Positions 8,487-32,976 of a DNA stretch of 64,000 bases are shown here, one piece after another. This stretch comes from Sphingobacteriaceae bacterium (GTDB lineage: Bacteria > Bacteroidota > Bacteroidia > B-17B0 > Aurantibacillaceae), in NCBI GenBank assembly GCA_002319075.1, contig NVQB01000001.1:3720001-3784000 (forward strand), read 5' to 3'. Positions within the stretch are counted from its first letter, which is position 1. Every line of letters starts with the position of its first letter. The position numbers and the translations under genes were made by a program. The notes under the pieces were generated by a model that worked only from the letters and a program-made list of their open reading frames with translations, was not told the DNA's origin and made no database searches.

Positions 8487-8503
8487 TTGTTTTATTTAAT
8501 AAG

Positions 8504-8522
8504 TATCTTAGTGACAAAGATA
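8504..8522 (-). promoter_or_regulatory. Promoter and likely MarR operator
   Basis: On the minus strand TATCTTTG (8515-8522) matches the Bacteroidota -7 element TAnnTTTG about 30 bp upstream of the MarR ATG. The same bases form an inverted repeat, TATCTT-7 bp-AAGATA, of the size MarR dimers bind. Overlap of the two suggests autorepression; binding itself is inferred. Confidence 0.6.
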
Positions 8523-8610
8523 AATAAATATTGCTTCACGCTACACAGAATGCTAAAAAAATCCGGATCCGGTAATAAGGGAGTTATTTATCTTTCTTAC
8601 GGATTAACAT

Positions 8611-9174: not shown

Positions 9175-9348
9175 AAATTAAAAGAGGTTTGCAAAGCTAC
9201 CCGGGCGTTTAGGTACGCAGCATAAAAGTACAGTTTAATTACTTACTCCGTCTTCAACAAATCAATTTGCCTCCAAATTGGTTATTTGCTTAAGTTGGGT
9301 GTGAAATTCTCTTACCTTTAAATTAAAATTCCTTCGAAGTTTAAACCC

Positions 9349-10059
9349 ATGAAAAAAACCTTTGTTTTATTAAGCCTGCTTTTATTAGTGGGCTGTAAAA
9401 AAAAATCTTCTGAAAGTGCCGAAGAAACCGCAACAACTACCACTGGCAGCACAACAAGTGGTGGAAGCACAACCGGCAATCCTTTTGTTAACCCAGCCTT
9501 TGCTGTTGAATTAACAAGTACAAATACCGATCATAGTTACAGTTATTCCAGCGCGCGTTTTTATGAAAGCTCTGCCAGCGCTGTTCTTATTGATCAGGTA
9601 AAATCGGATAATAAAATTATGGGACAGTATCCCGGCGACGAATACCGTTATGCAAATGCGTCTTCAAATTATACGGCCGCAGTTCTCTGGGATCTTTCGT
9701 CCAGCAGAGAGCATATTCCTGACACTTCTTTTTATTCACCAGCGTTTCCAGGCATAGGGTTTACAAAAAATACTTCCCTTACCTATGATAGCACGAAAGA
9801 TTTTACGATTGCCATTGATCCGGGTGCTTGCGACAGTATGTTCATTACCTTAGGAACAATCACGAAGAAAATTCGGGGAAAAAGCGGTGTAAACTCTGTC
9901 ACTTTTAAACCAGGTGATGGTGTAAAGGCTAACACATTTGATACTGCCGAAGTGGTTGTAGAAGTAGCTACTATGAATTATTCGGTTTTTACTGTTCGTG
10001 CCAGAAAATGGCGGGTAATGAGCGTGACGACTGCACAATCGCACTATAAGTACAAATAA
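9349..10059 (+). CDS. Putative lipoprotein of unknown function
   Basis: A 236-residue exported protein. The N-terminus (MKKTFVLLSLLLLVGC) ends in a lipobox with Cys16, followed by a basic KKK and a Thr/Ser/Gly-rich linker to about residue 45 that would space the domain from the membrane. The remaining ~190 residues look beta-rich and contain two Cys-poor halves; I recognise no family. It stands alone between the di-iron gene and the convergent histidine kinase. Confidence 0.75.
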   Translation: MKKTFVLLSLLLLVGCKKKSSESAEETATTTTGSTTSGGSTTGNPFVNPAFAVELTSTNTDHSYSYSSARFYESSASAVLIDQVKSDNKIMGQYPGDEYRYANASSNYTAAVLWDLSSSREHIPDTSFYSPAFPGIGFTKNTSLTYDSTKDFTIAIDPGACDSMFITLGTITKKIRGKSGVNSVTFKPGDGVKANTFDTAEVVVEVATMNYSVFTVRARKWRVMSVTTAQSHYKYK

Positions 10060-10126
10060 AACCTTTTATAAGCGGAGTTTTATTGCACTAATTTCTATCA
10101 TGGGTTTATTTTATCCAAAAGGGAAG

Positions 10127-12085
10127 TTAAAGGCTCGCTTCTTTTTGATGTAAAGGAAGTGTGATAATAAAAGTCGCGCCCTTATCGGGCTTTCCAGCAG
10201 CCGTAATGCTGCCTCCGTGACGCTCTACGATTTTTTTGCAAAGTGCTAGTCCAAGGCCTGTGCCTTCATATTTGTCTTTAGAGTTAAGTCGCGTAAAAGT
10301 CTCAAATATCTGTAAAGCATTTTCAGGCTCAAACCCTATGCCATTATCTTTTAAAGTTATATGGACCAAATCGTTCCATGTGTTATCCATCTCAGAGGAG
10401 AGCGAAATTTGCGGTGCCAAACCTTTTTGTGCAAACTTTATGGAATTATTAATGAGATTATAGAACAGTTGATAAATAAGTACAGGTGCACCTTCCAGCT
10501 TTGGAAGATTATGAAGGTGAATTTTTCCATTTGTTTTTTGTAAAGAAACTTCCAGATCATTTTCAATATTTTTTATGACTTCATTCAGATCAATTAGTTC
10601 AGGTTTTTGCTCGCCTGCATTGGTGGTGGAGTAAGCTAACACGCCATCAATCATGGTAAACATACGATCAGTTGCCACATTAATCCTGTCGATAAAGCGT
10701 GCAGAAGAGTCGTCTAAAGTATCGTGCAGTTGATCCTTTAGTCTTCCTATAAATGTTTTGATTTTTCTCACAGGCTCCTTTAAGTCATGCGATGCTACGT
10801 GGGCAAACTGCTGCAAGTCTTCATTAGAGCGCTGCAGTTCTTTTGTACGGGCATTCACTTGTCCTTCCAGGTTTTCTGCTAAAACTTTATAGCGTTTTTC
10901 ACTTTCTTCCAGTTTTTTTCTCGCTACAACCTGTTCTGTCACGTCTATGGCTACCTGAATCATACCAACTATTTGCTCGTTTTCTCTTAAAGGACGGTAG
11001 GCTATGTTGTAAAAATAATCCTGCATAACGCCGCTGCGACTATGAGCAACTTGCACTTCAAGCTGGGTGAAAGGAACGCCCTGTTCAAAAACTTTTTCCA
11101 CCTGCTCCCATATATACTGTCCTCTGAGTTCAGGCATTACGTTGATTAACGGATGCCCTATAATTTCTTCTCCGCGACCTATCATTTGCAGCATGCGCTT
11201 ATTAATTTGTTCGATCACAAGATCATGCCCCATCAAAACCATTGTGGGAGCCGGGGTTTGATCAATCATTGATCTAAGCCGCGTCTCGCTTTGCAGAAGT
11301 TTTCCCTCAATCCTTTTAAAGTCGGTTACATCGCGTGTTGTGCCGGCAATAGCTTCCACCTCTCCTTGAGCATTAAAAACAGGCACCAGGATATAGTCGT
11401 ACACACGACTTCCTAATTCAGCGTGGGGAAATGCGACCGTGCCACGGATGGATTTTTTCGTTGCAATGATCTCGTCAATTTCGCGTTCATGCATCTGTGC
11501 ATGCCATTCTTCATAGCCGTTTTCGCGCAGCCCCTTGCCTATGGCGTCTTCTGCGGTTTTGCCCCACATAGTGAGTAACGCTTTATTGGCATAAGAAAAT
11601 TTATAAGCCAGGCTGAATACATAAACAAGATCAGGAGTATTATTGGCTATGGAATCGTAAAGTCTTTGTTGTTTTTCTGCAACATCCAGAGAATTCTTTA
11701 AAGCCAGTTCAGCCTTTTTAGATTCGGTTCTATCCTCTGTGGTTACTACTAATAAATCTCCTTGTTTTACTGCAGTGAAATGAAACCAATTTTTTACCCC
11801 TTCTCCTTCCTGCCAGGTTTCAAAGCTCCCTGTTTCACCTGTCTCAGCTACCTTTATAAATTTTTCAAGAACTCCATTGACTTTCATGCCTGGAAAAATA
11901 TCGCCATAGAGTTTTCCTTTGTATTCTATGTTGCCAATCCAATTGCGTGTATAAGCATTAAAAAGCAGAATGGAGAAATCTTTCACTTTTCCTTTTTCAT
12001 CTTTCGCCGTCTTCATAACGGCAATTCCGTTGGGTGCTGAATCGAAAACGGTTTGTAAGAGATCTTTATTTTCTGTTAATTCCAT
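10127..12085 (-). CDS. PAS-domain sensor histidine kinase
   Basis: A 652-residue kinase without transmembrane segments. Three PAS/PAC modules occupy about residues 8-125, 140-260 and 270-395, with typical PAC endings such as AIAGTTRDVTDFKR. The phospho-acceptor is His433 in FAHVASHDLKEPVRK (HisKA), followed by the N box (LINNSIKFAQ), G1 (DNGIGF), F box and G2 (GTGLGLALCKKIVERHGG). The HDLKEP form is typical of phytochrome-like and soluble PAS kinases. No response regulator is next to it, so it is an orphan kinase here; the signal sensed by the PAS domains is unknown. Confidence 0.92.
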   Translation of the reverse strand: MELTENKDLLQTVFDSAPNGIAVMKTAKDEKGKVKDFSILLFNAYTRNWIGNIEYKGKLYGDIFPGMKVNGVLEKFIKVAETGETGSFETWQEGEGVKNWFHFTAVKQGDLLVVTTEDRTESKKAELALKNSLDVAEKQQRLYDSIANNTPDLVYVFSLAYKFSYANKALLTMWGKTAEDAIGKGLRENGYEEWHAQMHEREIDEIIATKKSIRGTVAFPHAELGSRVYDYILVPVFNAQGEVEAIAGTTRDVTDFKRIEGKLLQSETRLRSMIDQTPAPTMVLMGHDLVIEQINKRMLQMIGRGEEIIGHPLINVMPELRGQYIWEQVEKVFEQGVPFTQLEVQVAHSRSGVMQDYFYNIAYRPLRENEQIVGMIQVAIDVTEQVVARKKLEESEKRYKVLAENLEGQVNARTKELQRSNEDLQQFAHVASHDLKEPVRKIKTFIGRLKDQLHDTLDDSSARFIDRINVATDRMFTMIDGVLAYSTTNAGEQKPELIDLNEVIKNIENDLEVSLQKTNGKIHLHNLPKLEGAPVLIYQLFYNLINNSIKFAQKGLAPQISLSSEMDNTWNDLVHITLKDNGIGFEPENALQIFETFTRLNSKDKYEGTGLGLALCKKIVERHGGSITAAGKPDKGATFIITLPLHQKEASL

Positions 12086-12350
12086 TGTGCTTTTACAATC
12101 TGAAAAAAAATTGGTAATTCACTGATTTACATTAGCGAACTTAAAAGTGATTTATGTATTATTTTTTGGGTCGTCACTGGGCTAGGTGGTTTTACTTCGC
12201 AATTTCTGTACAAATCATCGAAAGAAAGTTACGGGATTTGTGTCAAAAATGAATTTCTGGTATGAAATATTTTGCATAAAAAGGTAATTTAATACCTGAT
12301 GCGAAAATGATGCCAGCGCAATCAGTGCTGAGATGACTATTGCGCCATTT

Positions 12351-13094
12351 TTAATTAATAATTTGCCCGTCGCTATTCGCCAGCTTTTCACGCCACTTCT
12401 GAATTTCTTCAGGTGATTGTCTCAGCCATTCTTTGGCTTCTCCAGTAATTTTCAGAGCTCCGTTTGTGCGATAGGAACGGGTTGGATTACCGGGAAATTT
12501 TTTGTCCGTAACGTTGGGATCATTTTCAAAATTCTCTGTAGGTTCTATAATATATACGCGTTCAGGTGTATCTCCATTAGCCAACGCGGCCGCAAGTCCG
12601 GCGCTATTTAAAAGGGCGGTAAAATAAATATGATTCATGGTTAAATCAGATTTGTAATTCGATCCCTTACCTGGAGTTAACAGATCCCCGGTTTTCAGGT
12701 CCGCCCTGGTTCCGTGGTAAAAAGGGCCTTTGTCAGTGGGTTTATCATTACTGGCCTGAGCGAGCTCGTGATTCTTTTTAGCGTTTTCAAAATCCTTTAG
12801 GTCTTCGCAACATTTTGCAATAGTTGAATAAAGAAATGGAAACGCGGATTTAACCGAATCGTCATTTATTTTCAAGCCCATTTCTAATACAGACTCTAAC
12901 CATCTTAATTTTTCGCGAACTTCTTTTTGATGCCGCGCGATATAATATGCCGCGATAAATTTTTCGAAGTCCTGGGTCGCCTCGTTATACGCTTGAAGAA
13001 ATAAACGCAGTGCTTCTTCAGGTTTGTTCTGTGTTTCCAGGTCCATTCCCTGCAGGCAGAGTTTTACTATGGGGTTACGCGGGTCAAATTGCAT
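12351..13094 (-). CDS. arr: TPR-linked NAD+-rifampin ADP-ribosyltransferase (Arr family)
   Basis: Arr enzymes inactivate rifamycins by adding ADP-ribose from NAD+ to the drug's hydroxyl at C23. Here residues about 123-247 are a complete Arr domain: GPFYHGTRADLKTGDLL with the conserved His127, NHIYFTALL, ERVYIIEPT, and the family signature NDPNVTDKKFPGNPTRSY. Residues 1-118 form a helical TPR-like region (EEALRLFLQAYNEA, LYSTIAKCCEDLKDFENAKK) not present in the ~140-residue mobile Arr proteins. Nothing nearby suggests a resistance island, so this looks like a resident chromosomal gene. Whether the extended protein modifies rifamycins or another substrate is not known from sequence. Confidence 0.88.
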   Translation of the reverse strand: MQFDPRNPIVKLCLQGMDLETQNKPEEALRLFLQAYNEATQDFEKFIAAYYIARHQKEVREKLRWLESVLEMGLKINDDSVKSAFPFLYSTIAKCCEDLKDFENAKKNHELAQASNDKPTDKGPFYHGTRADLKTGDLLTPGKGSNYKSDLTMNHIYFTALLNSAGLAAALANGDTPERVYIIEPTENFENDPNVTDKKFPGNPTRSYRTNGALKITGEAKEWLRQSPEEIQKWREKLANSDGQIIN

Positions 13095-13124
13095 GTACTA
13101 GGTTTTTAAGGGTATTTTTTCTGG

Positions 13125-13553
13125 TTATTTTGTTTGCGCCTCAAATCCGTCTTGTATTGCTTCGCGCAACACATCCACATTTATATCTTTCAGAGATTTG
13201 AATTTTATACAATACCCTGTAACTTCAGCTTTGCCTATTTTTTTGCCATAAGTAGTTACCAGGAATTTTTTATCTTCTATACCCATGATGTATAGGGAAA
13301 TTCCTGATGTATTGGCACTTAACCCAACTTGATAAAACTCACGCGTTTTGCCACCGGCGTACTTCATGGTCTGAAGTCCGTAGCCAATATTCGGATTCGA
13401 AACAGTTTTGCCTTCTTCGTTTTTGCCATCGAGAAACCATAGTTTGTCTGTTGGCATTAGTTTCAGAATTAGACTATGCAACTCCTGCATGTCGCCGCGT
13501 TTTGCTTCGGGCTGACTGGCAATGTATTCTTTGATTTGTGTTTTTACGGTCAT
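13125..13553 (-). CDS. DUF1801 family protein
   Basis: A 142-residue cytosolic protein of the DUF1801 (YdhG-like) family. Typical features are the N-terminal VKTQIKEYIASQPEAKRGDMQ helix pair, the YGLQTMKYAGGKTREFYQVGL strand region and a C-terminal helix with LKDINVDVLREAI. The family has a compact alpha/beta fold of unknown function. It lies 30 bp upstream of the Arr gene on the same strand and may share its transcript, but nothing ties the two functionally. Confidence 0.75.
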   Translation of the reverse strand: MTVKTQIKEYIASQPEAKRGDMQELHSLILKLMPTDKLWFLDGKNEEGKTVSNPNIGYGLQTMKYAGGKTREFYQVGLSANTSGISLYIMGIEDKKFLVTTYGKKIGKAEVTGYCIKFKSLKDINVDVLREAIQDGFEAQTK

Positions 13554-13620
13554 AGATAATAATCCTGGTTATGTATGAGTGCTAAATAAAATGTGTAAAA
13601 AGTTTTTGACGAAACGTGAC

Positions 13621-14460
13621 TTAGTTACCGGTATTTTTCGAAATCACTGAAGTTTGAGAAAATCCACTTTTTGTTTTTAAGTCAATATTAAAATTATCAA
13701 GTTTCATGCTCATGTCCATTTTAGTGTCGGTTTGATAGTTGACATAATAATTATTTGCGATGTCATAAAGTAGTTTTCCTTTTCCGCTGCCGGTAGCATT
13801 AATCGTGTACTTGGTTATGGTGGTTTTCATGGTGTAAACATTTACTACATCAAAGTCTGCAACACCATTGTTTACACTTAAGAGTTTGTAGGTAGTGGTA
13901 ATAATCATTTCAAGCGTTACACCTGCTACAGGAATGTTTAAAGGTGTTTCTATCGAGAATTTTTCGCCTACTTTAACCTGGCGCTCTGGTAAATCCAACT
14001 GTGAAAACATGCTTTGCATTGTTTGAAGCAAGGTTTTTTTAAGTTCTTCGTTAATGCCCTCTGAAACTACAGAGTCGAGTGTAGGCATCGCTCCCATAGA
14101 ACCATGTCCGTAAAGTAACAGGCCATCCGGAATATCCTTTTTTCCGTCACTGCTGCTGGTTGTCACAATTTCTATAGTTAATGGAAAATTTTTCCCATCA
14201 GTGGATTTACCAGTTTTGAAAAGGGTTTCCATTTTTGAACTTTTGTTCGTTATAGTTGGATTTTCAATGCCTTTGTCTTTTAAGCTACGAAGAAATTCTT
14301 TAGAGCCCGAATAGGTTATTTCATTATATGATGTTTGTTCGATGGTATTACTGTATTTTGTTTCAGGATTGTATTGAATTTTAAAAGTTATGCTATTTTT
14401 CGATTGACTGTAAGAGTAAATCTGATTGACTAAAAGCAGCGCCAGAAGGATTTTTTTCAT
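13621..14460 (-). CDS. Exported protein of unknown function (DUF6263-like)
   Basis: A 279-residue protein with a signal peptide (MKKILLALLLVNQIYSYSQS). The mature part is beta-rich, with alternating Thr/Lys/Val strands, a conserved-looking PERQVKVGEKFSIETPLNIP segment and a terminal stretch on a long-lived 'GSGKGKLLYDIANNYYVNY' motif. The overall look agrees with Bacteroidota exported proteins annotated as DUF6263, which is a tentative call. No catalytic motif or anchor is seen. It is likely periplasmic. Confidence 0.6.
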   Translation of the reverse strand: MKKILLALLLVNQIYSYSQSKNSITFKIQYNPETKYSNTIEQTSYNEITYSGSKEFLRSLKDKGIENPTITNKSSKMETLFKTGKSTDGKNFPLTIEIVTTSSSDGKKDIPDGLLLYGHGSMGAMPTLDSVVSEGINEELKKTLLQTMQSMFSQLDLPERQVKVGEKFSIETPLNIPVAGVTLEMIITTTYKLLSVNNGVADFDVVNVYTMKTTITKYTINATGSGKGKLLYDIANNYYVNYQTDTKMDMSMKLDNFNIDLKTKSGFSQTSVISKNTGN

Positions 14461-16255: not shown

Positions 16256-16425
16256 CCGGAACTTAGCGCGGCGAAAAAAATCACAGGCGCTCAAATGTTG
16301 CAATGTCGTTCCAATAGCCATCGGGAGTGAAGTTAAAAGAAAATATGTATTCACAAAAACCTTTAAGTATGTGGCCGCAGATATGCAAAGTAATGGTCCG
16401 TTGGAGCTTGAACTTCTGTTAGCTA
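16256..16425 (-). repeat. Array repeat R1
   Basis: First of four related spacers between single genes. It carries the shared block TAGCCATCGGGAGTGAAG followed by TTAAAA (about 16315-16338), the GC-rich end CGGAACTTAGCGCGGCG (from 16257) and, at the far end, TTCTGTTAGC (16414-16423). It is the most diverged copy: the hairpin arms that are clear in R2-R4 are not obvious here. Confidence 0.7.
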
Positions 16426-16448
16426 TCTCGTGGTCGCACTCACATACT

Positions 16449-16949
16449 TCAGGCCACAATTTTATTAATCGAGTCTGTGTCGAAACCATGGGCTTTTAAT
16501 ATTTTAAGCGCTTTTTGTTTATCGTTGATTTTTGCTTTGTCAAACTCGTCAAGAAGTCCACTCACGAGCAACCGTTCCTTAACAGTCATTCCAATAAAAT
16601 TTATTGATTTGTTGGAAATTGCAATGTCGATCCATTTATGGTTAACAAGAGTTTGATATTGGCCCCATTGCGGCGTGCCATTTTCTCTGCCTTTCACTTT
16701 TGTAGGCATAATGAAATCGTCTTGACAACCCGTGCATGGTTCTGAAATAATAATCCAGTCGTCTTCATGAATATTGTAGGTCTCAGCGCAATGATTTTCG
16801 GCCTCCTCGATCGTATCAAAAGTATAGTCTGAGATAGAGGACGTGTCATTTACACAATCAAAACCAAAAAGATAGACGGTGTCTGAGGAAACATAAGTGA
16901 TGAGTTTTTTAATTTTGTCAAATGTGTCTATGAATGCCACTTTTCTCAT
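16449..16949 (-). CDS. Cassette gene, hypothetical cytosolic protein
   Basis: A 166-residue protein with no signal peptide or membrane segment. The N-terminal half (about 1-70) is acidic with YTFDTIEEAENHC, then EPCTGCQDDF with a CxxC pair, a middle HKWIDIAI segment and a helical C-terminus (LLDEFDKAKINDKQKALKIL). I recognise no family. It is a single-gene unit between repeats R1 and R2. Codon use is slightly richer in rare codons than the flanking housekeeping genes, as expected for acquired cassettes, but this was judged by eye. Confidence 0.65.
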   Translation of the reverse strand: MRKVAFIDTFDKIKKLITYVSSDTVYLFGFDCVNDTSSISDYTFDTIEEAENHCAETYNIHEDDWIIISEPCTGCQDDFIMPTKVKGRENGTPQWGQYQTLVNHKWIDIAISNKSINFIGMTVKERLLVSGLLDEFDKAKINDKQKALKILKAHGFDTDSINKIVA

Positions 16950-17002
16950 TGTGTTCTGTTTTACGGAATGTCTGTCCTCCGCCTCCCGATTTCTATTGTA
17001 AG

Positions 17003-17159
17003 CGATGCCGCTCCTCTTTACTAGTAGCTATCGCGAGTGAAGCTAAAAATAAATTACGCAAAAGCAAAACTGTTTCACACCGAAGGCGCCAAATTTAAAT
17101 TGCTTTTGCATGCGCGATGCGGTCTCTCGTCCGCGGTGGCGACAGTTTGCTGTTATAGG
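17003..17159 (-). repeat. Array repeat R2
   Basis: Contains TAGCTATCGCGAGTGAAGC (17025 on), the counterpart of the shared block, a perfect 10-bp inverted pair GCAAAAGCAA (17058-17067) / TTGCTTTTGC (17100-17109), and TTTGCTGTTATAGG at its outer end. The arm sequence differs from that of R4 yet stays self-complementary, so structure rather than sequence seems conserved. Confidence 0.75.
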
Positions 17160-17216
17160 CTGCAAAAGTCATCTATTCTTCAATAACGCATTGTTTGTCT
17201 CGGTTAAAATTTTGAA

Positions 17217-17825
17217 CTATTTAATTTTTAGAATAAAAGATCTATCTAAGAAATAAGTAGTATTACCTCTCCGATAATAGAGATTTTGTATTAAACAGAT
17301 AGCATTTTCACTAATAGGGCTTTGTCCACTCACAGATTTAGATAGACGAGGGATGTCAAGTCTGTTTGTTAAGTTATAATATGTAAGTGTGTCATTAGAT
17401 ATTATATATGCTGTCAATGCGCAAAAATCAATTCGCTTATTTTTCGATTTAATATAAATATTTATTTCGTTTTTCGTATAGTCTAAAGGAATGCTATCAA
17501 TATAAGAATACAAAGCCATTTCGGACGGAAGACAATTAGGCGAATTCGAAGCTGAAACCACTTGTTCATCATATCCTTCGTCTGGAGATATCAAATAGTG
17601 ATATTGCTTTCTGTCGGTGCATTTGAATGAGACTGTTTTTTTTGCACCTTCTTGTTTATATTCACTCGGAAGTAGTATCGTCGCCGGCTGAATATTAGGA
17701 TAAAATACAGAAGCTTTTTCAAGACGAAATTTATGCTTACCAATAAATAAAGTGTCTGAAAAGTTTTTCTGACCGAATGCAGTTGTTGTCAGGACGACTA
17801 TGTAAATTACTATTTTTTGTCGCAT
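17217..17825 (-). CDS. Cassette gene, exported hypothetical protein
   Basis: A 202-residue protein with a signal peptide (MRQKIVIYIVVLTTTAFGQ). The mature part has no recognised domain; two Cys residues (CTDRKQYH and SPNCLPSE) and a third pair near the C-terminus (DFCALTAYI, NAICLIQNLYYRR) could form disulfides in the periplasm. It is the only gene between repeats R2 and R3 and has the low-complexity AT-rich codon use of its array neighbours. No function can be assigned. Confidence 0.65.
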   Translation of the reverse strand: MRQKIVIYIVVLTTTAFGQKNFSDTLFIGKHKFRLEKASVFYPNIQPATILLPSEYKQEGAKKTVSFKCTDRKQYHYLISPDEGYDEQVVSASNSPNCLPSEMALYSYIDSIPLDYTKNEINIYIKSKNKRIDFCALTAYIISNDTLTYYNLTNRLDIPRLSKSVSGQSPISENAICLIQNLYYRRGNTTYFLDRSFILKIK

Positions 17826-22307: not shown

Positions 22308-22736
22308 TCAAAGCAATACATGCACCTTAGTCTTTCCGGGAACAAATTCGGAAACACATTTCTGCGGGCTCAGCAATTTCATTTGCAGGGCAATATTTTC
22401 AAGTTTACTCTCGAGCAACATTTTTTTATACTGCCAGAGCTTTAATTCCTGTTCCTCCTGTAGCGATAATTTTTTTTCAGATGAATTAAGACGCATCGAA
22501 GAAAAATTCAGAATCTGTTCATCGGTATTTATAAAATCGGTGACGCCAAGTTGAAATACTTCGCAGATCCTAAGAATGATCTGGTCCGAAAAATGTTTTT
22601 TTCCGTTTTCAAGATCGCTGTATTGCTGTTGACTCGATAGATTTAATGAACAGGCCAGTGTAAATTGTTTTATCTTATTAGTTTCCCGCAGTTGTTTTAA
22701 ACGGGCGGCGTAAATTTTGTCTCTCTTGCTAAGCAT
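22308..22736 (-). CDS. XRE-type helix-turn-helix regulator, divergent from the peptide locus
   Basis: A 142-residue DNA-binding protein. Residues about 10-66 form a Cro/C1-type HTH (ARLKQLRETNKIKQFTLAC, then SSQQQYSDLENGKKHF and ICEVFQLGVTDFI), followed by a coiled-coil-like helix (about 90-125) that may serve for dimerisation. There is no ligand domain. It is transcribed away from the precursor-peptide gene, sharing a 334-bp control region, and is the obvious candidate for control of the locus at 23.0-30.5 kb. Confidence 0.8.
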   Translation of the reverse strand: MLSKRDKIYAARLKQLRETNKIKQFTLACSLNLSSQQQYSDLENGKKHFSDQIILRICEVFQLGVTDFINTDEQILNFSSMRLNSSEKKLSLQEEQELKLWQYKKMLLESKLENIALQMKLLSPQKCVSEFVPGKTKVHVLL

Positions 22737-22907
22737 ATTTTTTTTACGGATTTTCTTTGTAAAATAATTTTATCTCTAAAACCCATTGCTTTTTTGCTTG
22801 CCGTGCTTTTTTAAGAAAATAAGTATTAGCATGCAGTTTGGGCATTTGGGTAAGCACAAATTCTAAGTTAAAATTAAAACATTTTTTTTAGTTTAAAGAT
22901 GCCTTAC

Positions 22908-22929
22908 GGGTTTTTTCCGTGAAAAACCC
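22908..22929. promoter_or_regulatory. Inverted repeat upstream of the precursor peptide
   Basis: GGGTTTTT (22908-22915) and AAAAACCC (22922-22929) are perfectly complementary across a 6-bp loop, lying between the divergent XRE gene and the precursor. It may be the XRE operator or an RNA hairpin in a ~150-nt leader; I cannot decide. No convincing TAnnTTTG element was found close by. Confidence 0.4.
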
Positions 22930-23070
22930 CCGGGGGAAAATTGCTTTTAACTTTTTTGTGATCGTAACTTGCAAGCGGTTAAAAGTTTTGTAGGTACCCA
23001 AAATGTTAATCGGGCGGAAGCGAAAAGCCTGCATGAGCAAAGAGTAGCAAATTATTTAAAATCAGTAAAA

Positions 23071-23229
23071 ATGGAAATTAAAAAACTAAGCTTAGCTGAA
23101 TTAAAAGCTAAAGCAAATGCCGTAACAACTGCAGAAGCCTTAAACGCAATTAAAGGTGGTGCCCAAGTTAAATGCCATTACCCAATTATTGAACCGATAA
23201 AATGCGAGTTACCTACAATGAAAGAATAA
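23071..23229 (+). CDS. Ribosomal-peptide precursor with double-glycine leader
   Basis: A 52-residue small gene product. The leader (MEIKKLSLAELKAKANAVTT then AEALNAIKGG) is a typical Bacteroidota GG leader for processing by a C39 peptidase. The 22-residue core has two Cys and a two-fold internal repeat: VKCHYPIIEP followed by IKCELPTMKE, both matching (V/I)-K-C-x-(Y/L)-P. A longer frame from TTG 22969 adds 34 residues of no leader character; the ATG at 23071 is preferred because it yields a standard leader. The core is rich in Pro, Lys and Glu with no Ser, one Thr and no aromatic but one Tyr, so lanthionine chemistry is unlikely. The dedicated exporter is encoded at 26933-30450. Confidence 0.8.
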   Translation: MEIKKLSLAELKAKANAVTTAEALNAIKGGAQVKCHYPIIEPIKCELPTMKE

Positions 23230-23292
23230 TTTGCTAGAATTTTGACAGGGAGGTGCAACCGCATCTTCCTGTTACTTTATCCCCCGGTTGTT

Positions 23293-24435
23293 ATGAATTA
23301 TTTTTGTGTGTTAATATTCATTACCTGTATCCTTACAAGCTCCGCGCAAACTGAGTCTTCTTTGCTGATAGGGGCAACCACCGAAAAAAAAACATACAGC
23401 GCCAATTTCACAGCCATAAAAAATCTTCTTGAAACTTACAATGCCGCCATTCTTGAAAACCCGACCTATGTCGGCAGCGAATGGGCTCCCAAAGTCTTAA
23501 ACGAATACACTATTCCAGATTACTTGCTTAAACAAGAAATCTCAGCGTACAGATCCAAATTCCAGATTAAGCCAAACCTTATGTACATTTTTAAAATGGA
23601 CAGTTGTTGGGTTGCTCAAATGGCTTATCATTTATATGACGGCACTGAATTTAAAGGTCTGCTTTGCGTTTATAACTTCGGAGTTACAAAAATTCAAAGT
23701 GACTTTAAGCTGGTCCCTTATGCTCAGCTTCAAAAATTTAAACAGGGCAAAACAAAAACCATCTCTTATTACAGTCACGAAAATTCAGTTCTTTCAGCCA
23801 GTAACATCGATAGTCTTGAGAATTATAATAATTTCCTGTCAAGAGTTTTAAAAACCCCCGTAATTTCTTTTAAATGCTATAACTATCTGAATTTTGCGGA
23901 ACTCAACATTTGCAATGGATTGATAGCAGGAAATTTTTCACATGCCATTTCTGAAAATGCTTATACGGATATTTATAACAGCATTATTCATACCACCAGT
24001 TTTGAAAGCCTTTTTCACGAAAGTACGCATCTTTACAACCATCAGTTAAATCCAGTTATGCACCCCTGCATCGATGAGGGTTTGGCTTGTTATTTTGGTT
24101 CCTGTCAGAAAAAGCCCTACACTTTTCACCTGGCTGTTTTGCAGAACTATTTGCAACTGCACCCGGAAATAAACTTAAACAACACACTCTACTACCACAA
24201 AGATTTTATCAGCCAGGAGAGCAGTTTCGAAACGGATATGGGCAGTCTGCTTGCAGCTATGGCCTTTGGCCGATGGGGTTACGCGGGTATTCTGAAACTC
24301 ACTTCCATAAATTCCGGCAATGAAGAATTTTATGCCGGCATTACTAACTTATTTAACGTAAAACGCGAAGACCTCAATGTGTTTTTGCGCGATGAATTAA
24401 AAAAATACACCAATGGCAGCAATAAAAGCGATTAA
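23293..24435 (+). CDS. Exported HExxH (gluzincin-like) metallopeptidase-type protein
   Basis: A 380-residue protein with a signal peptide (about 1-19, ending SSAQ) when started at ATG 23293; a TTG at 23242 would add 17 residues and bury it. Residues 242-246 are His-Glu-Ser-Thr-His with Glu262 in the IDEGLACYFG segment 16 residues later, matching the HExxH...E zinc site of gluzincin peptidases in order though with shorter spacing than thermolysin. The two hundred N-terminal residues are unfamiliar. It starts 63 bp after the precursor stop and its own stop overlaps the next start by 23 bp, so it is in the peptide operon. It might trim the exported peptide or act as immunity; neither is shown. 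Confidence 0.7.
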   Translation: MNYFCVLIFITCILTSSAQTESSLLIGATTEKKTYSANFTAIKNLLETYNAAILENPTYVGSEWAPKVLNEYTIPDYLLKQEISAYRSKFQIKPNLMYIFKMDSCWVAQMAYHLYDGTEFKGLLCVYNFGVTKIQSDFKLVPYAQLQKFKQGKTKTISYYSHENSVLSASNIDSLENYNNFLSRVLKTPVISFKCYNYLNFAELNICNGLIAGNFSHAISENAYTDIYNSIIHTTSFESLFHESTHLYNHQLNPVMHPCIDEGLACYFGSCQKKPYTFHLAVLQNYLQLHPEINLNNTLYYHKDFISQESSFETDMGSLLAAMAFGRWGYAGILKLTSINSGNEEFYAGITNLFNVKREDLNVFLRDELKKYTNGSNKSD

Positions 24436-25624
24436 CCTGGAGCGCATCAACACGGGCAAAGCACATTTTGCCGAGCTCATAAAAATTTTATTCTATAAAG
24501 CCAACAGCGATCTTATAGAACTTTTAGATCTGGACAGAGATGAGATTTTCCTGGATCCTTTGATTTACGCTTATTTTAGTGATGCAAATGGCGCAGAGAA
24601 AACAACCTTAGAACAATTGATATATGGCTATATAGCCGATGATCTAAAGCCAGAACGCATTCCTTTGCTCTTTGATGAAGAGGGGATGACTTATCTTCCG
24701 GAGATAGGTTATTTCAAAGCTTTGGAAAACATTAAACCTTTTCAGCGCTATTATTTTTCAGGCAAAAATTCCGGAACCTATACGATCTCTTCCCAGGGGG
24801 GTGAGCCTTTAAAACTAAGATTCTTTTCGCGCCAGTTTGCAGATGCAGAAAATAAAATAGAACTCATCCGCTTTCAGCATCCTTTGCTTAAATCTTACTT
24901 CACATCCAACTGGCCGGGTAACGAAAGAGAAGGTCAGCCTGCAGACATTGAAGTGAACGAGATCACCCAATATCATACGGCGAATGTAAAAGATGCTCTC
25001 CATTTTCTAAAGACGAACTACAACGCGATCTATGAAACACTGGTAGCGACTAACAGGCGGTTTATGATTTTTCAAAATATGGATTGTCTCTGTTTTACCC
25101 ATCAGAATTTACTCGGTATTTCTTTTTTCAGTACTTCCCATGAACATACGCGTGTCTTTTTTATGGAAGAAATCCTGCACCAGGGTTCTCACAATATTTT
25201 TAATACCATGCACGATGATAAATTCCGTTACTTTAAATTAAATGTGGAAGAGGAGCGTCTTGGTGATCACATCGGTTTGCCGGAAGAGCATCGGACAATC
25301 TATAATGTCTTCCATGGCCTGGTGACGGTTACGCACAGGCTTATCTGTTACAAAGAAATGGTCGAAAAAAATCAGCTAAAAGATTCAGAAATGCACGAGC
25401 TTTATGGGCGTTATTGCGATCAATACAAAAGATTCAACACTGGAATTGAATTGTTGGAGAGCGATAAAGTTTACACCGAACAGGGCAAAGAGCTTTTTAA
25501 CGAAATGAGAACGAAAGGCAGCGAAGCTCTGGACTATTTCAAAGATAAAGCAACCGTCTACAATCTCAGTAACCAACCCTGGGAATTTAACTACCTTTTA
25601 TTTAAAGAACTCAACACTTTATAA
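24413..25624 (+). CDS. Putative peptide-modifying enzyme, HEXXH-motif family relative with HQxxH
   Basis: A 403-residue cytosolic protein. It resembles the 'HEXXH motif-containing putative peptide modification protein' family (TIGR04267), recently described, from memory, as 2-oxoglutarate-dependent peptide hydroxylases. The helix ARVFFMEEILHQGSHNIF-like segment places His256-Gln-Gly-Ser-His260 where the family has HExxH, and EEHRTIYNVFHG (His301) matches the family's downstream R..(G/N)V.HG metal ligand. Replacement of Glu by Gln suggests a metal site that is not a protease. It follows the metallopeptidase gene with an overlap of 23 bp and precedes the amidohydrolase by 3 bp. The probable substrate is the 52-residue precursor. 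Confidence 0.65.
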   Translation: MAAIKAINLERINTGKAHFAELIKILFYKANSDLIELLDLDRDEIFLDPLIYAYFSDANGAEKTTLEQLIYGYIADDLKPERIPLLFDEEGMTYLPEIGYFKALENIKPFQRYYFSGKNSGTYTISSQGGEPLKLRFFSRQFADAENKIELIRFQHPLLKSYFTSNWPGNEREGQPADIEVNEITQYHTANVKDALHFLKTNYNAIYETLVATNRRFMIFQNMDCLCFTHQNLLGISFFSTSHEHTRVFFMEEILHQGSHNIFNTMHDDKFRYFKLNVEEERLGDHIGLPEEHRTIYNVFHGLVTVTHRLICYKEMVEKNQLKDSEMHELYGRYCDQYKRFNTGIELLESDKVYTEQGKELFNEMRTKGSEALDYFKDKATVYNLSNQPWEFNYLLFKELNTL

Positions 25625-25627
25625 TTT

Positions 25628-26932
25628 ATGATCAAAAACTTTTTTCTCATCCTGTTTCTGAATTGTGCTTTGGCGTTTGGCCAGACTAAAATTATATTTT
25701 CCAATGTGAACGTGGTGGACGTGGAGAACGGAAGTCTTATTAAGAATACGAATGTTATAGTGGAAGAAGGAAAAATTAAAACTATCTCTCCCGATCTCAA
25801 AAAAGTAAAAATTTCTAAATATAAAGTGATAGACTGTTCAAATAAGTACATGGTGCCTGGTTACATTGATTCTCACGCCCACCTGCCTTCGGGTGAAAGT
25901 CCTTATGACTATGACACTTATTTTTTATCTTATTTAGCGAATGGTGTAACTAGTTTAAGAGTATTAAGATTTGATGCAAAGAACGAGACCTTTCGTGATA
26001 GCGTCACTAAAAAAAAATATCTCGGAACAAATTTATTTTTGACTCAGCCACCGATTACGAAGTTTCTGGGTTACGATGCTTTCAAAAAACAAGTAGATAC
26101 CTACAAAAGCCGGGGTTACGATTTTGTGAAATATTTATGTTGTCTGAATAAAAAACAGTTGGACAGTATTTCTATGATCCTGAATGAAAAATCTATTCCT
26201 CTGGTAGGACACGTGCATAACGAGGGAGCCCTCTTTACTATACAGCATAAATTCAGGAGTTTGGAACATCTGGAACCTTTTGTAAAACCCCTAAAAAGAG
26301 ATTCTGCTGCCACCTACGATCTGGCCAAGGCCATGAAAGAAAACAATACATTTATATGTCCTACTTATTTCTGGTACTATTATTCCTGGGATCAATTTTC
26401 AAAAGAAGAGATCTATGCATATCCGGAATTAGAGTTTGTTCCCGCATCGGTAACGGCTTTGTGGAAAAAGGAATTTGAAGAATACGAGGCTTCTTTTATT
26501 ATCGCAAAGAGAGAGCAGTATAAAACAGAACGAGAAGTTTTTAAATCGGATCTTCAAAAGTTTGATCGTTTTGCAAATTACCTTAACAAAAGTGGAGTTA
26601 AATTGTTAGTGGGATCGGATGATCAATCCTTCGGAGTGCCCGGATTTGCTTATCACCGGGAGATAGCTTATTTCAAAAATGCAGGGATTCCGAATGCAGA
26701 TATTCTTAAAGGCATGACCAGTTACGGGGCAGAATGTCTTTCGCAAGACAAAACCTTGGGAAAGATAAAAGAAAATTATAAGGCAGATCTGGTTATATTA
26801 AATGATAATCCTCTGGACAATACAGAACATCTGAAAAATATCTCGGCAGTGGTAAAGTCCGGAGACTACTACGAGATCAGCCAGCTCCGATCAAAATTGA
26901 AAAATGCAGTGACTAAAGCGAACGGTAAATAA
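25628..26932 (+). CDS. Exported metal-dependent amidohydrolase
   Basis: A 434-residue amidohydrolase-superfamily enzyme with a signal peptide (MIKNFFLILFLNCALAFGQ). Metal ligands are visible: His83-Ala-His85 in IDSHAHL, Lys168 in DFVKYL (candidate carboxylated bridge), His195/His197 in VGHVHNEG, His214 in SLEHLE and Asp331 in LVGSDDQS. The layout is that of imidazolonepropionase- and prolidase-like subgroup III members that cleave Xaa-Pro or Xaa-Arg dipeptides or cyclic amides. Its position, 3 bp after the modification enzyme and directly abutting the exporter (TAA then ATG at 26933), is unusual and suggests a role in maturation or immunity for the exported peptide. Confidence 0.85.
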   Translation: MIKNFFLILFLNCALAFGQTKIIFSNVNVVDVENGSLIKNTNVIVEEGKIKTISPDLKKVKISKYKVIDCSNKYMVPGYIDSHAHLPSGESPYDYDTYFLSYLANGVTSLRVLRFDAKNETFRDSVTKKKYLGTNLFLTQPPITKFLGYDAFKKQVDTYKSRGYDFVKYLCCLNKKQLDSISMILNEKSIPLVGHVHNEGALFTIQHKFRSLEHLEPFVKPLKRDSAATYDLAKAMKENNTFICPTYFWYYYSWDQFSKEEIYAYPELEFVPASVTALWKKEFEEYEASFIIAKREQYKTEREVFKSDLQKFDRFANYLNKSGVKLLVGSDDQSFGVPGFAYHREIAYFKNAGIPNADILKGMTSYGAECLSQDKTLGKIKENYKADLVILNDNPLDNTEHLKNISAVVKSGDYYEISQLRSKLKNAVTKANGK

Positions 26933-29140
26933 ATGGCAAAAAAAATTCAGTTTTATAAACAGTTAGATCAAATGGATTGCGGTCCCACCTGCCTGCGAAT
27001 GGTGGCTAAATTTCATGGCATGACGGTTTCTGTGGATGACCTGAGAGACAGAGCCTACATCACGCGGGAAGGTGTTTCCTTCTCCGGACTCGCCGAGGCC
27101 GCTGAGGGCATTGGCTTTAGCGCTATGGCATTTAATATTGGCTTTGAGTCTTTAAAGAATGATGTTCCCTTGCCATGTATCGCATACTGGCGCCAACGTC
27201 ATTTTGTTGTAGTGCACGCTATAGATAAAAAATATGTGCATGTGGCAGACCCTGCTTTCGGAATGATCAGGTACTCGCATGAAGATTTTAAAAAGAGTTG
27301 GTTGCCTTACCGCGGAACAAGACAAGAGGACGAAGGATTGATCATGGCTATAGAACCGGGCTCTGATTTTTCTCCGGATATTTTTGCAGAAAAAGTAACT
27401 ACAAAAAATAAATTCGCTTTCCTTTTTAAATATTTCAAACCTCACAATAAATATATTGTTCAATTATTCTTAAGTCTGATCATTGGAACACTTCTTCAAT
27501 TGGTATTTCCTTTCCTCGCGCAAGTGGTGGTAGACAAAGGGGTAAATCTCCGTGATCTTAATTTTATTTACCTGATCCTGATCGCACAATTAACCTTATT
27601 TATTTCAGGAACGCTTGTAGATATCATAAGGGCCTGGATCCTTTTGAATATAACTTCCCGCATTAATATTCAACTGGTCTCTGATTTTATTAAAAAACTG
27701 ATGCGCCTTCCAGTTTCTTTTTTTGAGTCTAAAAACATGGGCGATCTTTTAAACCGGATGCAGGATCATCAACGCATTGCCAATCTTTTATCGACGAGTT
27801 CTCTCAGCGTTATTTTTGGCATCGTTAATATTATTTTATTCGGCATGGTGCTGGCTTTTTTCAACATGACCGTTTTTTTTGTATTTCTTGCGGGTTCTTG
27901 TTTATATGTGACCTGGGTAATGCTGTTCATGAAAAGGCGCGCCTTACTCGATTACCAGTACTTCGATCAGTCCTCTGGAAATCAAAGCGGTTTCTTATCG
28001 ATCATAAATGGAATGCAGGAAATTAAACTGAACAATTCTGAAAAGAAACACCGCTGGCAATGGGAAGCTTCGAAGATCCGCCTCTTTAACCTGAGTGTGA
28101 AAAATTTGTCACTCGCTCAAATACAAAACATTGGCGGCGTTTTTATCAATGAAATAAAAAATATCATCATTACCTTTCTGTCAGCCAGAGCTGTTATAAA
28201 CGGTGAGTTAAGTATTGGTGGAATGATGTCGGTACAATACATCCTTGGTCAATTGAATTCTCCAATAAACAACCTGATAGTTTTTATCCAGACCCTGCAA
28301 ACCGCTCTCATAAGCGTAGAGCGTGTTTCAGAAATTCATGATAAGGAGGATGAGGACGATGTGACGCAAACAAAGCTAACCACTTTAAAAGCAGACAAGT
28401 CGATTATTTTTCAGAATGTGAGTTTCAGATATGGGGCCAGCAACATGCCTTTGGTTTTAAATAATCTGAATTTTATGATCCCGCAGGGCAAGGTCACAGC
28501 CATTGTGGGTGCAAGTGGCAGTGGTAAGACAACCCTGCTTAAAATATTACTTCGCTTCTATGCTGTGAATGAAGGAACTATTCTGGTGGGAAATAGTAAC
28601 ATCCATAATTATAACATTCAGTTCTGGCGAAGTAAATGTGGGATCGTGATGCAGGATGGGTTCTTGTTTCCGGATAGTATCGCGAAAAATATAGCTGAAT
28701 CGGAAGTGGACAATGCTATTGACAAAGAAAGACTTTATCATGCCGCTCATATTGCCAACCTTACTGAATTCATAGAAAGTTTACCGATGGGCTATAATAC
28801 AAAAATCGGATCAAACGGCGCCAATTTGAGTGGCGGACAAAAACAAAGAATTTTAATTGCCAGAGCCGTTTATAAAAATCCTGATTTCCTATTCTTTGAT
28901 GAAGCAACCAGTGCCCTGGATGCGAACAATGAAAAAGTGATCATGCAAAACCTGGAAGAATTTTACAAAGGTAAAACCGTTATCATAGTGGCCCATCGTT
29001 TAAGTACTGTTAAGAATGCCGATAAGATCATTGTCCTCGAAAAGGGGGCTATTCGCGAAGAGGGCAGTCACATTAACCTTGTGGACAAACGTGAATTGTA
29101 TTATACCTTAATTAAAAATCAATTGGAACTGGGAAACTGA
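26933..29140 (+). CDS. Peptidase-containing ABC exporter (C39 family, PCAT)
   Basis: A 735-residue exporter that removes GG leaders and moves the core peptide across the inner membrane. The N-terminal C39 peptidase (about 1-125) has oxyanion Gln10, catalytic Cys16 in QLDQMDCGPTC, His90 in RQRHFVVV and Asp106 in VADPAF, so it should be active. Six transmembrane segments follow (about 155-440), then an ATPase with Walker A GASGSGKTT, signature LSGGQ and Walker B FLFFDEATSALD. It abuts the amidohydrolase and its stop overlaps the HlyD start (TGATG at 29138-29142), so the two are translationally coupled. The likely cargo is the peptide at 23071-23229. Confidence 0.93.
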   Translation: MAKKIQFYKQLDQMDCGPTCLRMVAKFHGMTVSVDDLRDRAYITREGVSFSGLAEAAEGIGFSAMAFNIGFESLKNDVPLPCIAYWRQRHFVVVHAIDKKYVHVADPAFGMIRYSHEDFKKSWLPYRGTRQEDEGLIMAIEPGSDFSPDIFAEKVTTKNKFAFLFKYFKPHNKYIVQLFLSLIIGTLLQLVFPFLAQVVVDKGVNLRDLNFIYLILIAQLTLFISGTLVDIIRAWILLNITSRINIQLVSDFIKKLMRLPVSFFESKNMGDLLNRMQDHQRIANLLSTSSLSVIFGIVNIILFGMVLAFFNMTVFFVFLAGSCLYVTWVMLFMKRRALLDYQYFDQSSGNQSGFLSIINGMQEIKLNNSEKKHRWQWEASKIRLFNLSVKNLSLAQIQNIGGVFINEIKNIIITFLSARAVINGELSIGGMMSVQYILGQLNSPINNLIVFIQTLQTALISVERVSEIHDKEDEDDVTQTKLTTLKADKSIIFQNVSFRYGASNMPLVLNNLNFMIPQGKVTAIVGASGSGKTTLLKILLRFYAVNEGTILVGNSNIHNYNIQFWRSKCGIVMQDGFLFPDSIAKNIAESEVDNAIDKERLYHAAHIANLTEFIESLPMGYNTKIGSNGANLSGGQKQRILIARAVYKNPDFLFFDEATSALDANNEKVIMQNLEEFYKGKTVIIVAHRLSTVKNADKIIVLEKGAIREEGSHINLVDKRELYYTLIKNQLELGN

Positions 29141-30450
29141 TGGAAGAGCTGAAGGGAAAAATAAATGATGTAAACGAAGAAAGCGAATTCGTGCGGGACG
29201 TGCTGGAAAAACAACCCTCCTGGATGTTGCGGTTTGGACTTATTTTATTTTCTTCCACCGTTCTTCTTGTTTTTGTTTTTCTCTATTTTATAAAGTACCC
29301 GGATGTATTAACCGCAGATATCACGCTTACCACTTTGAACCCACCTGTAATTATGGTTGCTAAAAACAATGGTAAACTTGTAGCGCTTCTTGTGAAAAAC
29401 AAAGACCTGGTTAAGAAAGAGCAGACTATCGCCGTGATAGAGAACACAGCGAATTACCTGGACGTTCTGAAGCTTTCAAAAAGTTGTGAAACCCTGGCAA
29501 ATCAACTGAAAACAAAAGATACACTGACATCTTATTTCATAAAGGAAGGTTTAAAAGTAGGGGAGTTAACGCCCACTTATTTGCTTGCTTTAAAATCTAT
29601 AAAAGATCTGAGTCTTTACAACACTGTAAATTCATACAAGAGACAAATAGAATTATTGCAAAATGATTTGTTTAACTACAACGATCTTCTCGCCAAATAT
29701 AAACGCCAGGAGGCAATCAATAAAGAACAACTAAAACTATCGCAGACCGATTATAACCGCGACAATTCTTTGTTTGAAGACAAAGCAATTTCTGCCCGGG
29801 AGTTGGAAAACAAAAAAAAGGAATATTTGACGGCTCAAAACAACAACGAACAAATACAGATCACCATCTCCAATTGTTTGATCCAGATGAATACTATTGA
29901 AAAAAATATTCTTCAGTTAAAAATTCAGGATTACCAGGATCAGTCGCGTTTTAAAAATGAACTTCTACAGAATTTAAAGAGCCTGCAATCGGAAATAAGT
30001 AGCTGGAGACAACTCTATTTGATAGAAAGTCCGGTAGAAGGCCACATCTCTTTTTTTAATGTGTGGACTATTAACCAGAATCTCAAAACCGGTGACGAGC
30101 TTCTCGCCATTGTTCCCTACCAAAGCGAGCACTTTATCGGTAAATGTTCTTTGCCTGTTTTAAATTCGGGGAAGCTCCAGGTAGGTCAGCATGTAAATAT
30201 CAAATTAAATAACTACCCCTCTGAAGAAAGCGGCATGCTTCGGGGCACGGTTGAGAATATTTCAGAAATGCCTAACAAAGATAATTTCGCCATCGATGTA
30301 AAGTTGAATGAAGGCCTGGTGACGTCTTATAAAAAGAAATTGGTTTATAAGCAGGAAATGAAAGGCAAAGCGGATATTATTACTGAAAATGTTTCTGTTC
30401 TGGAACGAATTCTCTTCACTTTTAAAAGACTCCTCGATAAAAATACCTGA
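29140..30450 (+). CDS. HlyD family periplasmic adaptor
   Basis: A 436-residue membrane-fusion protein that links the PCAT exporter to an outer-membrane channel. It has one N-terminal transmembrane helix (about 30-52: FGLILFSSTVLLVFVFLY), a barrel-like domain that begins PVIMVAKNNGKLVALLV, a long alpha-helical hairpin (about 100-290, including QEAINKEQLKLSQTDYN) and a second barrel segment (VEGHISFFNVWT, GTVENISEMPN). No TolC-type outer-membrane factor is encoded in the window, so it must be supplied from elsewhere. It ends the peptide operon; a 2-hydroxyacid dehydrogenase starts 74 bp later. Confidence 0.9.
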   Translation: MEELKGKINDVNEESEFVRDVLEKQPSWMLRFGLILFSSTVLLVFVFLYFIKYPDVLTADITLTTLNPPVIMVAKNNGKLVALLVKNKDLVKKEQTIAVIENTANYLDVLKLSKSCETLANQLKTKDTLTSYFIKEGLKVGELTPTYLLALKSIKDLSLYNTVNSYKRQIELLQNDLFNYNDLLAKYKRQEAINKEQLKLSQTDYNRDNSLFEDKAISARELENKKKEYLTAQNNNEQIQITISNCLIQMNTIEKNILQLKIQDYQDQSRFKNELLQNLKSLQSEISSWRQLYLIESPVEGHISFFNVWTINQNLKTGDELLAIVPYQSEHFIGKCSLPVLNSGKLQVGQHVNIKLNNYPSEESGMLRGTVENISEMPNKDNFAIDVKLNEGLVTSYKKKLVYKQEMKGKADIITENVSVLERILFTFKRLLDKNT

Positions 30451-31983: not shown

Positions 31984-32976
31984 TTAGGCAAATAGTTTAG
32001 AGAGTCTAAATAGGAAGAAATTTACATCTGTAACTCCTCGGTATTGCGCTCTAAAAGCTTTGATTTTCGCATTAAATGATTCGGCTGAGGCATTAGTACT
32101 TCTGTTATTAAAGTAGTTTAGTATTCTTTTGTAATTGTTTTCAATGGTTCTGGATAGGGTATTGAAGGTCTTGAACCCAGATTGGGCAACCTCTTCATGC
32201 CATTTGGCTAATCTTGTAAACGCATATATTTTCTCTTTTGTATTGCTGTAGATCCAGGATAATTTTTGAGCCAGACCATACGCTTTTTTAATATCAGGAT
32301 AACGATCAAAAAGTATGTTAGCTCTTTGGGATTGTTCTAAAGTCCAGTTGTGTTCGGCTTTGTAGAGTAAATAGCGGCTTCTTGCGAGTAGTTGTTTGAG
32401 AGTCTCACCATTACTTAAAATTTCAGGGACATAAGCTCTTTTGTTTTTCCGGGATTCGTCAATGCCATTATTTTCAGCCTCTATAGCTTCCCAACGATGT
32501 CTTATTCTTATTTCCTGGAGTGCTTCGGTAGCTAACTGTTGAACATGGAAGCGATCAATAACCATACTTGCATGAGGAAAACATTTTTTTACGATTAACC
32601 CCATGCTACCCGCAAGATCCAGTGTGACTTCACGAACTCTCTTTCTAAGATGTAAGGGGATACTTTGTAGCAATGAGATTATGCTCTCCGAGTGAGTCCC
32701 CTTTAAAATCGCAACTATGGTACCCTTCTTCCCTTTTGCCGCTTTGTTGGAGAGGATTGTGTAAAGCTCTGAGTGTGATAAACAGGTCTCATCAATGGAT
32801 AAATAAGGACCAATGTTTTCAGGAAATATAATTCCTTGTTCGGCTTTATTCTTGTATTTCCAATCGTTATAATCACTTAATTTCTTACGATAGTAACGCT
32901 GAAGCTTTTTGCCATTAATGCCGTAAAATGAGCCTATAGTTTTAATGCTATGCGCATGCGTATCAACTAATTTCTT
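31984..32976 (-). CDS. ISL3/ISAon1-type transposase, C-terminal (DDE) frame
   Basis: Open from just after a TAA at 32977-32979 to 31984, 330 codons, with no ATG, GTG or TTG until TTG 32673; the homology begins well before 32673 (GINGKKLQRYYRKK, SIDETCLSHSELYTILS), so translation must enter from the upstream frame. The DDE triad is suggested by Asp in SIDET, Asp in VTLDLAGSM and MVIDRFHV, and Glu in ASAESFNAKIKAFR. A helix-rich insertion separates the last two, as in ISL3 DDE transposases. The upstream frame (32963-33319) overlaps it by 14 bp in a +1 relation. The frame seems otherwise intact. Confidence 0.85.
   Translation of the reverse strand, partial: KKLVDTHAHSIKTIGSFYGINGKKLQRYYRKKLSDYNDWKYKNKAEQGIIFPENIGPYLSIDETCLSHSELYTILSNKAAKGKKGTIVAILKGTHSESIISLLQSIPLHLRKRVREVTLDLAGSMGLIVKKCFPHASMVIDRFHVQQLATEALQEIRIRHRWEAIEAENNGIDESRKNKRAYVPEILSNGETLKQLLARSRYLLYKAEHNWTLEQSQRANILFDRYPDIKKAYGLAQKLSWIYSNTKEKIYAFTRLAKWHEEVAQSGFKTFNTLSRTIENNYKRILNYFNNRSTNASAESFNAKIKAFRAQYRGVTDVNFFLFRLSKLFA

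Follow-up and report, generated by a model that had tools for sequence, protein, structure and literature searches.

The closest described relatives of the system reported here are the alpha-ketoglutarate (alphaKG)-HExxH beta-hydroxylases (TIGR04267; the HExxH domain of ChlB, PflC/PosC and PesO). According to the available portion of PMC13060819, these proteins depend on iron and alphaKG, and the residues that they hydroxylate in ribosomally synthesized and post-translationally modified peptides (RiPPs) are His, Asp, Phe, Gln and Pro; in the available portion of PMC12636437, PflC and PosC are described as additionally cleaving the peptide backbone oxidatively. Neither article uses the text string 'bacteroid' in its main text. 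In this study, the locus at positions 22308-30450 of a stretch of 64,000 nucleotides (the window) from a Bacteroidota genome of 5.65 Mb was analyzed. This locus encodes a precursor peptide with a double-glycine (GG) leader, a 403-residue protein with an HQxxH motif (the HQ protein), an exported-looking amidohydrolase and a peptidase-containing ATP-binding cassette transporter (PCAT) with its HlyD-type adaptor. It is best read as representing a new RiPP family of Bacteroidota, which has Cys-His as the motif of its core peptides and an enzyme from an HQxxH branch of the alphaKG-HExxH fold at its centre, and not as a new kind of system.

The HQ protein shares with the alphaKG-HExxH beta-hydroxylases the fold, the HxxxH pattern and a RiPP-like precursor encoded alongside. 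However, it carries HQxxH and scores below the family cut-off, and the window system has a C39-type PCAT, a Bacteroidota host and GG-x4-CH as its candidate substrate motif. The leader of the precursor is short and of the LSLxxLKxRA...LLxxIxGG type, as in the Bacteroidota GG-leader precursors of TIGR04149 ('rSAM-modified RiPP'), whereas the precursor lies below the cut-off of that model and no radical SAM domain was found among the eight window proteins scanned. The bottromycin amidohydrolase (6i5s) is likewise a RiPP-pathway amidohydrolase related in sequence to that of the window; however, the window protein appears to be secreted, and higher scores go to entries named prolidase or amidohydrolase. 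With respect to the C39 PCAT and HlyD exporters of double-glycine peptides, every domain is present in the window and no difference is evident. Among the matches listed, the literature library searched yielded no paper on the present clusters, and the literature returned for SjiH (22ob) was unrelated. Furthermore, no literature was found there that pairs HQXXH with RiPP, or HExxH with Flavobacterium and a precursor peptide, and nothing related pairs carnosine N-methyltransferase with a precursor peptide.

The features that carry this reading are as follows.

23071..23160, plus strand: GG leader of the precursor, 30 residues; TIGR04149 14.7 bits (cut-off 25); aligned with 24 other precursors
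23161..23226, plus strand: core peptide AQVKCHYPIIEPIKCELPTMKE, 22 residues; monoisotopic mass, unmodified, 2569.31
23173..23178, plus strand: codons of Cys35-His36 (core positions 5-6), invariant in 25 precursors; proposed modification site
24413..25624, plus strand: HQxxH protein, 403 residues; alphaKG-HExxH-type fold as modelled; proposed peptide-modifying oxygenase
25178..25192, plus strand: HQGSH motif, H256-Q257-x-x-H260; R294, H301 and R333 are also conserved

The precursor gene extends from an ATG at 23071 to the stop at 23229 and encodes 52 residues; this start is a choice, since the mechanical open reading frame (ORF) begins earlier, at a TTG at 22969. Homologous clusters were collected from 22 genomes besides that of the window (designated by L or G numbers), and a peptide with Cys-His (CH) shortly after its leader was found at 21 of these 22 HQ loci, the exception being L057, the contig of which starts inside the HQ gene. 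The exact arrangement GG-x4-CH is present at 18 of them; the spacing from GG to CH is nine residues in L045 and seven in L046, and L059 carries three copies of the CH peptide with GR replacing GG. In an alignment of 25 precursors, invariance is limited to the first Gly of GG, the Cys and the His, and the tails vary freely in length and sequence. The peptides outside this alignment (L015, L051, L045, L046, the remnant L019 and two of the six L060 copies) all carry CH. In a background set of small ORFs (25-110 residues) taken from nine loci without an HQ cluster and from the window, GG-x4-CH was found in one of 1,969, this being the window precursor itself, so that its frequency at the HQ loci exceeds chance. 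The precursor profile produced one match in the 5.65-Mb genome at E values of up to 10, and hence no further precursor was found there; the consensus of leader and core had no match in plasmids. No model in the libraries scanned matches the GG-x4-CH family: besides the sub-threshold score of the window precursor, TIGR04149 gave no match in the precursors of ten relatives at E values of up to 0.1. In L060 (1821-3050), six tandem CH-motif peptides precede one HQ gene.

The HQ protein has no Pfam match and no significant NCBIfam match, its one NCBIfam row being meaningless (E 0.1, 12.1 bits against a cut-off of 160), and sequence searches of the PDB with the protein and its profile gave no significant match. 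A set of 23 homologous proteins was aligned, comprising that of the window and those of 20 genomes, with two paralogues each from L045 and L046 and with L043 and L057 left out. H256 is conserved in 21, Q257 in 20, H260 in 21, R294 in 21, H301 in 20 and R333 in 22 of these proteins. H256 and H260 are lacking in two degenerate paralogues, one in L045 and one in L046; in both loci (8313-10955 and 8673-11345, respectively), two HQ paralogues lie around one precursor and one member of each pair is without HxxxH. Among the 21 homologues that retain HxxxH, 20 have Gln at the position of the HExxH Glu, and L014 alone has Glu. In the tree, the window protein pairs with that of Runella zeae with a support of 95/94.

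An AlphaFold2 model of the HQ protein was built from 13 sequences, with a mean predicted local distance difference test score (pLDDT) of 73.1 and a predicted template modelling score of 0.77. A Foldseek search at E values of up to 0.001 returned two PDB entries, SjiH (22ob; 8.7e-7) and the HExxH domain of ChlB (8s5f; 3.5e-6), and the next entry had an E value of 0.75. The same two structures led the VIA ranking: 22ob with a Z of 20.9 (343 aligned, 4.5 Å) and 8s5f_A with a Z of 20.1 (278 aligned, 3.4 Å). The row that followed had a Z of 7.0 and peptidase chains had a Z of 6.8 or less; rows below rank 2, several zinc peptidase domains included, are background, in which the absence of a structure proves nothing. 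As modelled, the HQ protein has the fold of the alphaKG-HExxH peptide hydroxylases. The metal ligands in this model are probably H256, H260 and H301, and R333 may also be assigned to the iron/alphaKG site. The initial annotation had described the protein as akin to the HEXXH peptide-modification family; the fold matches bear this kinship out, as do two relatives with sub-threshold TIGR04267 matches over the HxxxH region (L017, 20.9 bits; L046, 19.6 bits; cut-off 40), the window protein itself having no sequence match. A TIGR04267 scan of 296 Bacteroidota genomes gave no match, but the control genomes were equally silent, so that nothing follows from this negative. The HQ proteins appear as a divergent branch, so far without a name, of a fold that has only recently been recognized as one of peptide oxygenases.

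Homologous loci were found across several Bacteroidota groups. In a sample of the phylum, seven of 392 genomes matched the HQ protein, namely the window's own, four with an intact HQ gene and two that were dropped: G471 (L018), judged a chance match with differing surroundings, and G256 (L019), a degraded remnant. The decayed cluster of the latter (8837-11429) still contains a CH peptide and an HTH_3 gene, together with a fragment of HlyD and a short fragment resembling HQ. A profile of five HQ sequences matched nine genomes in a set of 397 Flavobacteriaceae, adding seven to the collection, and a one-genome-per-species scan with the five-sequence alignment gave 14 loci, which include Runella zeae (35 % identity), several Flavobacterium, Kordia aestuariivivens, a Flaviramulus, one Saprospiraceae metagenome-assembled genome (MAG) and one MAG labelled Paludibacter. 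After L048, L054 and L055 had been merged with G846, G787 and G468, the final set of 22 genomes was obtained. The search by gene order covered genomes of the window's family, and no match to the HQ protein was found in plasmids, phages or viral contigs.

Homology of neighbours was called by BLASTP, with an E-value limit of 1e-4 and an alignment spanning no less than 40 % of the shorter of the two proteins. A PCAT is encoded at a distance of at most 9 kb from the HQ gene at 18 of the 22 loci, and HlyD at 17; other neighbours in this range were a TPR protein (12 loci), an Rce1/CPBP-like membrane protein (seven) and an exported protein of 391 residues (four). Two of the four loci without PCAT (L049 and L056) lie on contigs that end too early, and the L059 locus stops just after its PCAT. 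An amidohydrolase homologue lies within the same 9 kb at nine loci: between HQ and PCAT in L040, L041, L042, L050, L051, L052 and L058, ahead of HQ in Runella and behind it in L049, where the contig ends. The initial description of a RiPP-like locus with its own exporter is therefore supported, as precursor, HQ enzyme, PCAT and HlyD recur elsewhere, and the inclusion of an amidohydrolase in the same cluster also holds. The proposed check for the same neighbourhood in Bacteroidota genomes was largely passed, but the complete set occurs at no other locus because the exported HESTH protein of the window has no close homologue at the other 22.

On the basis of the gene order, the model fold, the conserved residues and the CH pair, all of which were computed here, we infer the modification, reaction, cleavage, processing and role as follows. 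The locus is likely to be a RiPP biosynthesis and export operon in which a divergent enzyme of oxygenase fold modifies Cys-His, with export by the PCAT and trimming outside. The HQxxH enzyme would bind the leader of the 52-residue precursor and, with its alphaKG/iron HExxH fold, would oxidize Cys-His at core positions 5-6, the most likely reaction being beta-hydroxylation of His. The C39 domain of the PCAT would then cut after GG, and the PCAT/HlyD pair, together with an outer-membrane channel encoded elsewhere, would export the peptide. Finally, trimming outside the cytoplasm would fall to the amidohydrolase and the HESTH protein, both presumably secreted, which may take off the variable tail. 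The chemistry is directly testable, since only two residues, both nearly invariant, make up the candidate site and one protein of ∼400 residues makes up the enzyme; once solved, it would reveal the effect of the change from HE to HQ in the alphaKG-HExxH fold.

Several observations weigh against this account. The Glu of HExxH is missing from the window protein, which TIGR04267 did not match at E values of up to 1, nor did this model match anything in the genome at E values of up to 10. The model of the HQ protein is of low confidence in its N-terminal part, with mean pLDDT values per block of ten residues of 36-77 up to residue 190 and of 74-93 thereafter. Within the 87 genomes of the window's family, the HQ protein was matched in the window's own genome only and was absent from the other 86, and the window protein alone gave no match in the one-genome-per-species scan. 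In addition, L043 and L046 have no PCAT in the 20-kb stretches examined, in L043 the HQ gene is broken into two reading frames (in L057 it is cut by the contig end) and none of the other HQ loci has the HESTH protein in a close form.

A different outcome of the same enzymes is conceivable, although we regard it as doubtful: the HQxxH enzymes may join the Cys sulfur to the His side chain, giving a crosslink or an ovothiol-like, peptide-borne thiohistidine, with the CARME-like enzyme of sister clusters N-methylating the same imidazole and the exchange of Glu for Gln marking a switch of chemistry. CARME domains resembling those of carnosine N-methyltransferases were found in three sister clusters (48.8-56.5 bits, cut-off 27), and CARME-type and other methyltransferases are encoded in L014, L016 and L059. 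Carnosine N-methyltransferases act on the imidazole ring. By this analogy, the CARME-type genes hint at His as the modified residue, in keeping with the preferred account given above.

A further reading, also unlikely, is that the operon makes an ordinary double-glycine bacteriocin that carries no modification except perhaps a single disulfide, the HQ protein acting in immunity or processing. Double-glycine bacteriocins are typically exported with a GG leader, a PCAT and HlyD, all three of which are present here. The window core contains two Cys residues, and seven of the 22 clusters encode the Rce1/CPBP-like membrane protein, which we take to be a type of immunity protein. However, the second Cys is not conserved across the precursors, unlike Cys-His, and a protein of oxygenase-type fold recurs with the precursor, which is partly expected given that the HQ protein was the search query.

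That the HQ protein is a non-catalytic, leader-binding pseudoenzyme, with the chemistry performed by other enzymes of the cluster, is considered quite improbable. The second, degenerate paralogues without HxxxH in L045 and L046 would fit such a role, as would the variation of the remaining modification genes among clusters: an aldo/keto reductase in L014 and L016, a ThiF-type adenylating enzyme with an alpha/beta hydrolase in L015 and L049, an aspartyl-protease/PDZ protein in L051 and a thioredoxin-like protein in L047. However, H256 and H260 are retained in 21 and R333 in 22 of the 23 proteins, and the window operon has no other visible cytoplasmic modification gene. A constant enzyme with variable tailoring genes is, as far as the sequences indicate, the pattern expected of a RiPP family. 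A role for the HQ protein as a zincin-type zinc peptidase that processes the precursor was rejected as very improbable: the zincin-like HxxxH, the HE kept in L014 and the proteolytic activity of the related PflC when the leader is missing (available portion of PMC12636437) favour it, but the nearly universal Gln at the position of the catalytic Glu speaks against a peptidase, peptidase chains stand far below the Z of 20-21 of the alphaKG-type structures in the VIA ranking, and leader cleavage is already provided by C39.

The remaining genes of the locus are listed below; 'exported' refers to hydrophobic N-termini judged by eye.

22308..22736, minus strand: XRE/HTH_3 regulator, divergent from the operon; HTH_3 26.7 bits (cut-off 23)
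23293..24435, plus strand: 380-residue HESTH protein with DEG farther downstream, exported-looking; putative secreted metallopeptidase
25628..26932, plus strand: amidohydrolase, exported-looking, prolidase/Xaa-Pro-dipeptidase-like; Amidohydro_1 58.1 bits
26933..29140, plus strand: C39-PCAT, a leader peptidase fused to an ABC exporter; Peptidase_C39 117.9 bits, ABC_tran 113.7 bits
29140..30450, plus strand: HlyD-type adaptor of the exporter; HlyD_3 41.0 bits (above cut-off), TIGR01843 94.7 bits (cut-off 208.65)

ORF calls and the raw sequence confirm the genes at the positions given in the initial annotation, which had counted four genes after the precursor; the number is five. The start of the HESTH gene was taken as the ATG at 23293, the mechanical ORF running from a TTG at 23242. 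From this gene onward, successive genes are related by a 23-base overlap, a 3-base gap, direct abutment and a 1-base overlap. A scan for promoters and terminators gave a signal no greater than in shuffled sequences.

In the amidohydrolase, H83, H85, K168, H195, H214 and D331 are invariant in nine aligned proteins including that of the window; we take these HxH, Lys, His, His and Asp residues to be the binuclear metal ligands of a prolidase-like site. Its kin in the PDB include prolidases and the bottromycin amidohydrolase (E 2.2e-10). The PCAT is the only C39 match in the genome. Its peptidase domain, in which the motifs DCGPTC, HFVVVH and ADPA presumably provide the catalytic Cys, His and Asp, is joined to the membrane and ATPase domains of an ABC transporter.

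The HESTH protein matched no Pfam or NCBIfam family at E values of up to 1, and among 392 Bacteroidota genomes it has matches in 13, one of which is its own. Since the stretches inspected around eight homologues contain neither an HQ homologue nor a full PCAT, it was probably recruited into the window cluster, to judge from these sequences. Ten aligned members of the family have H242 and H246 invariant and E262 nearly so. The exported 391-residue protein has an HDxxH version of the motif and is linked to the HESTH protein through intermediates, homologues outside HQ clusters matching both; direct comparison of the two profiles with hhalign gave a probability of 0.2 %. The AlphaFold2 model of the HESTH protein was unusable (pLDDT 37.0). 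A 469-residue Runella protein, considered as possible kin, is thioredoxin-like and unrelated to it.

The XRE/HTH_3 gene is a probable local regulator. The divergent regulator noted initially has a counterpart beside the precursor in five of the 22 loci (L044, L047, L048, L050 and L052) and in one degraded cluster; AraC-type genes occupy this position in L053 and L055, and the scan was confined to these loci.

Three further arrangements were observed. In L017 of G252 (3893-14057), an HQ/PCAT cluster with a GG-x4-CH precursor has a lantibiotic dehydratase and a LanC-like gene as neighbours, which suggests either a hybrid pathway or an adjacent one for a lanthipeptide. The cluster of L014 in G400 may be mobile, because an apparent tyrosine integrase and a mobilization gene, recognized by eye, flank it (3096-4340 and 16383-17399). 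In the window, a transposase-like ORF, also recognized by eye, occupies 31984-32673, ∼1.5 kb downstream of the HlyD gene.

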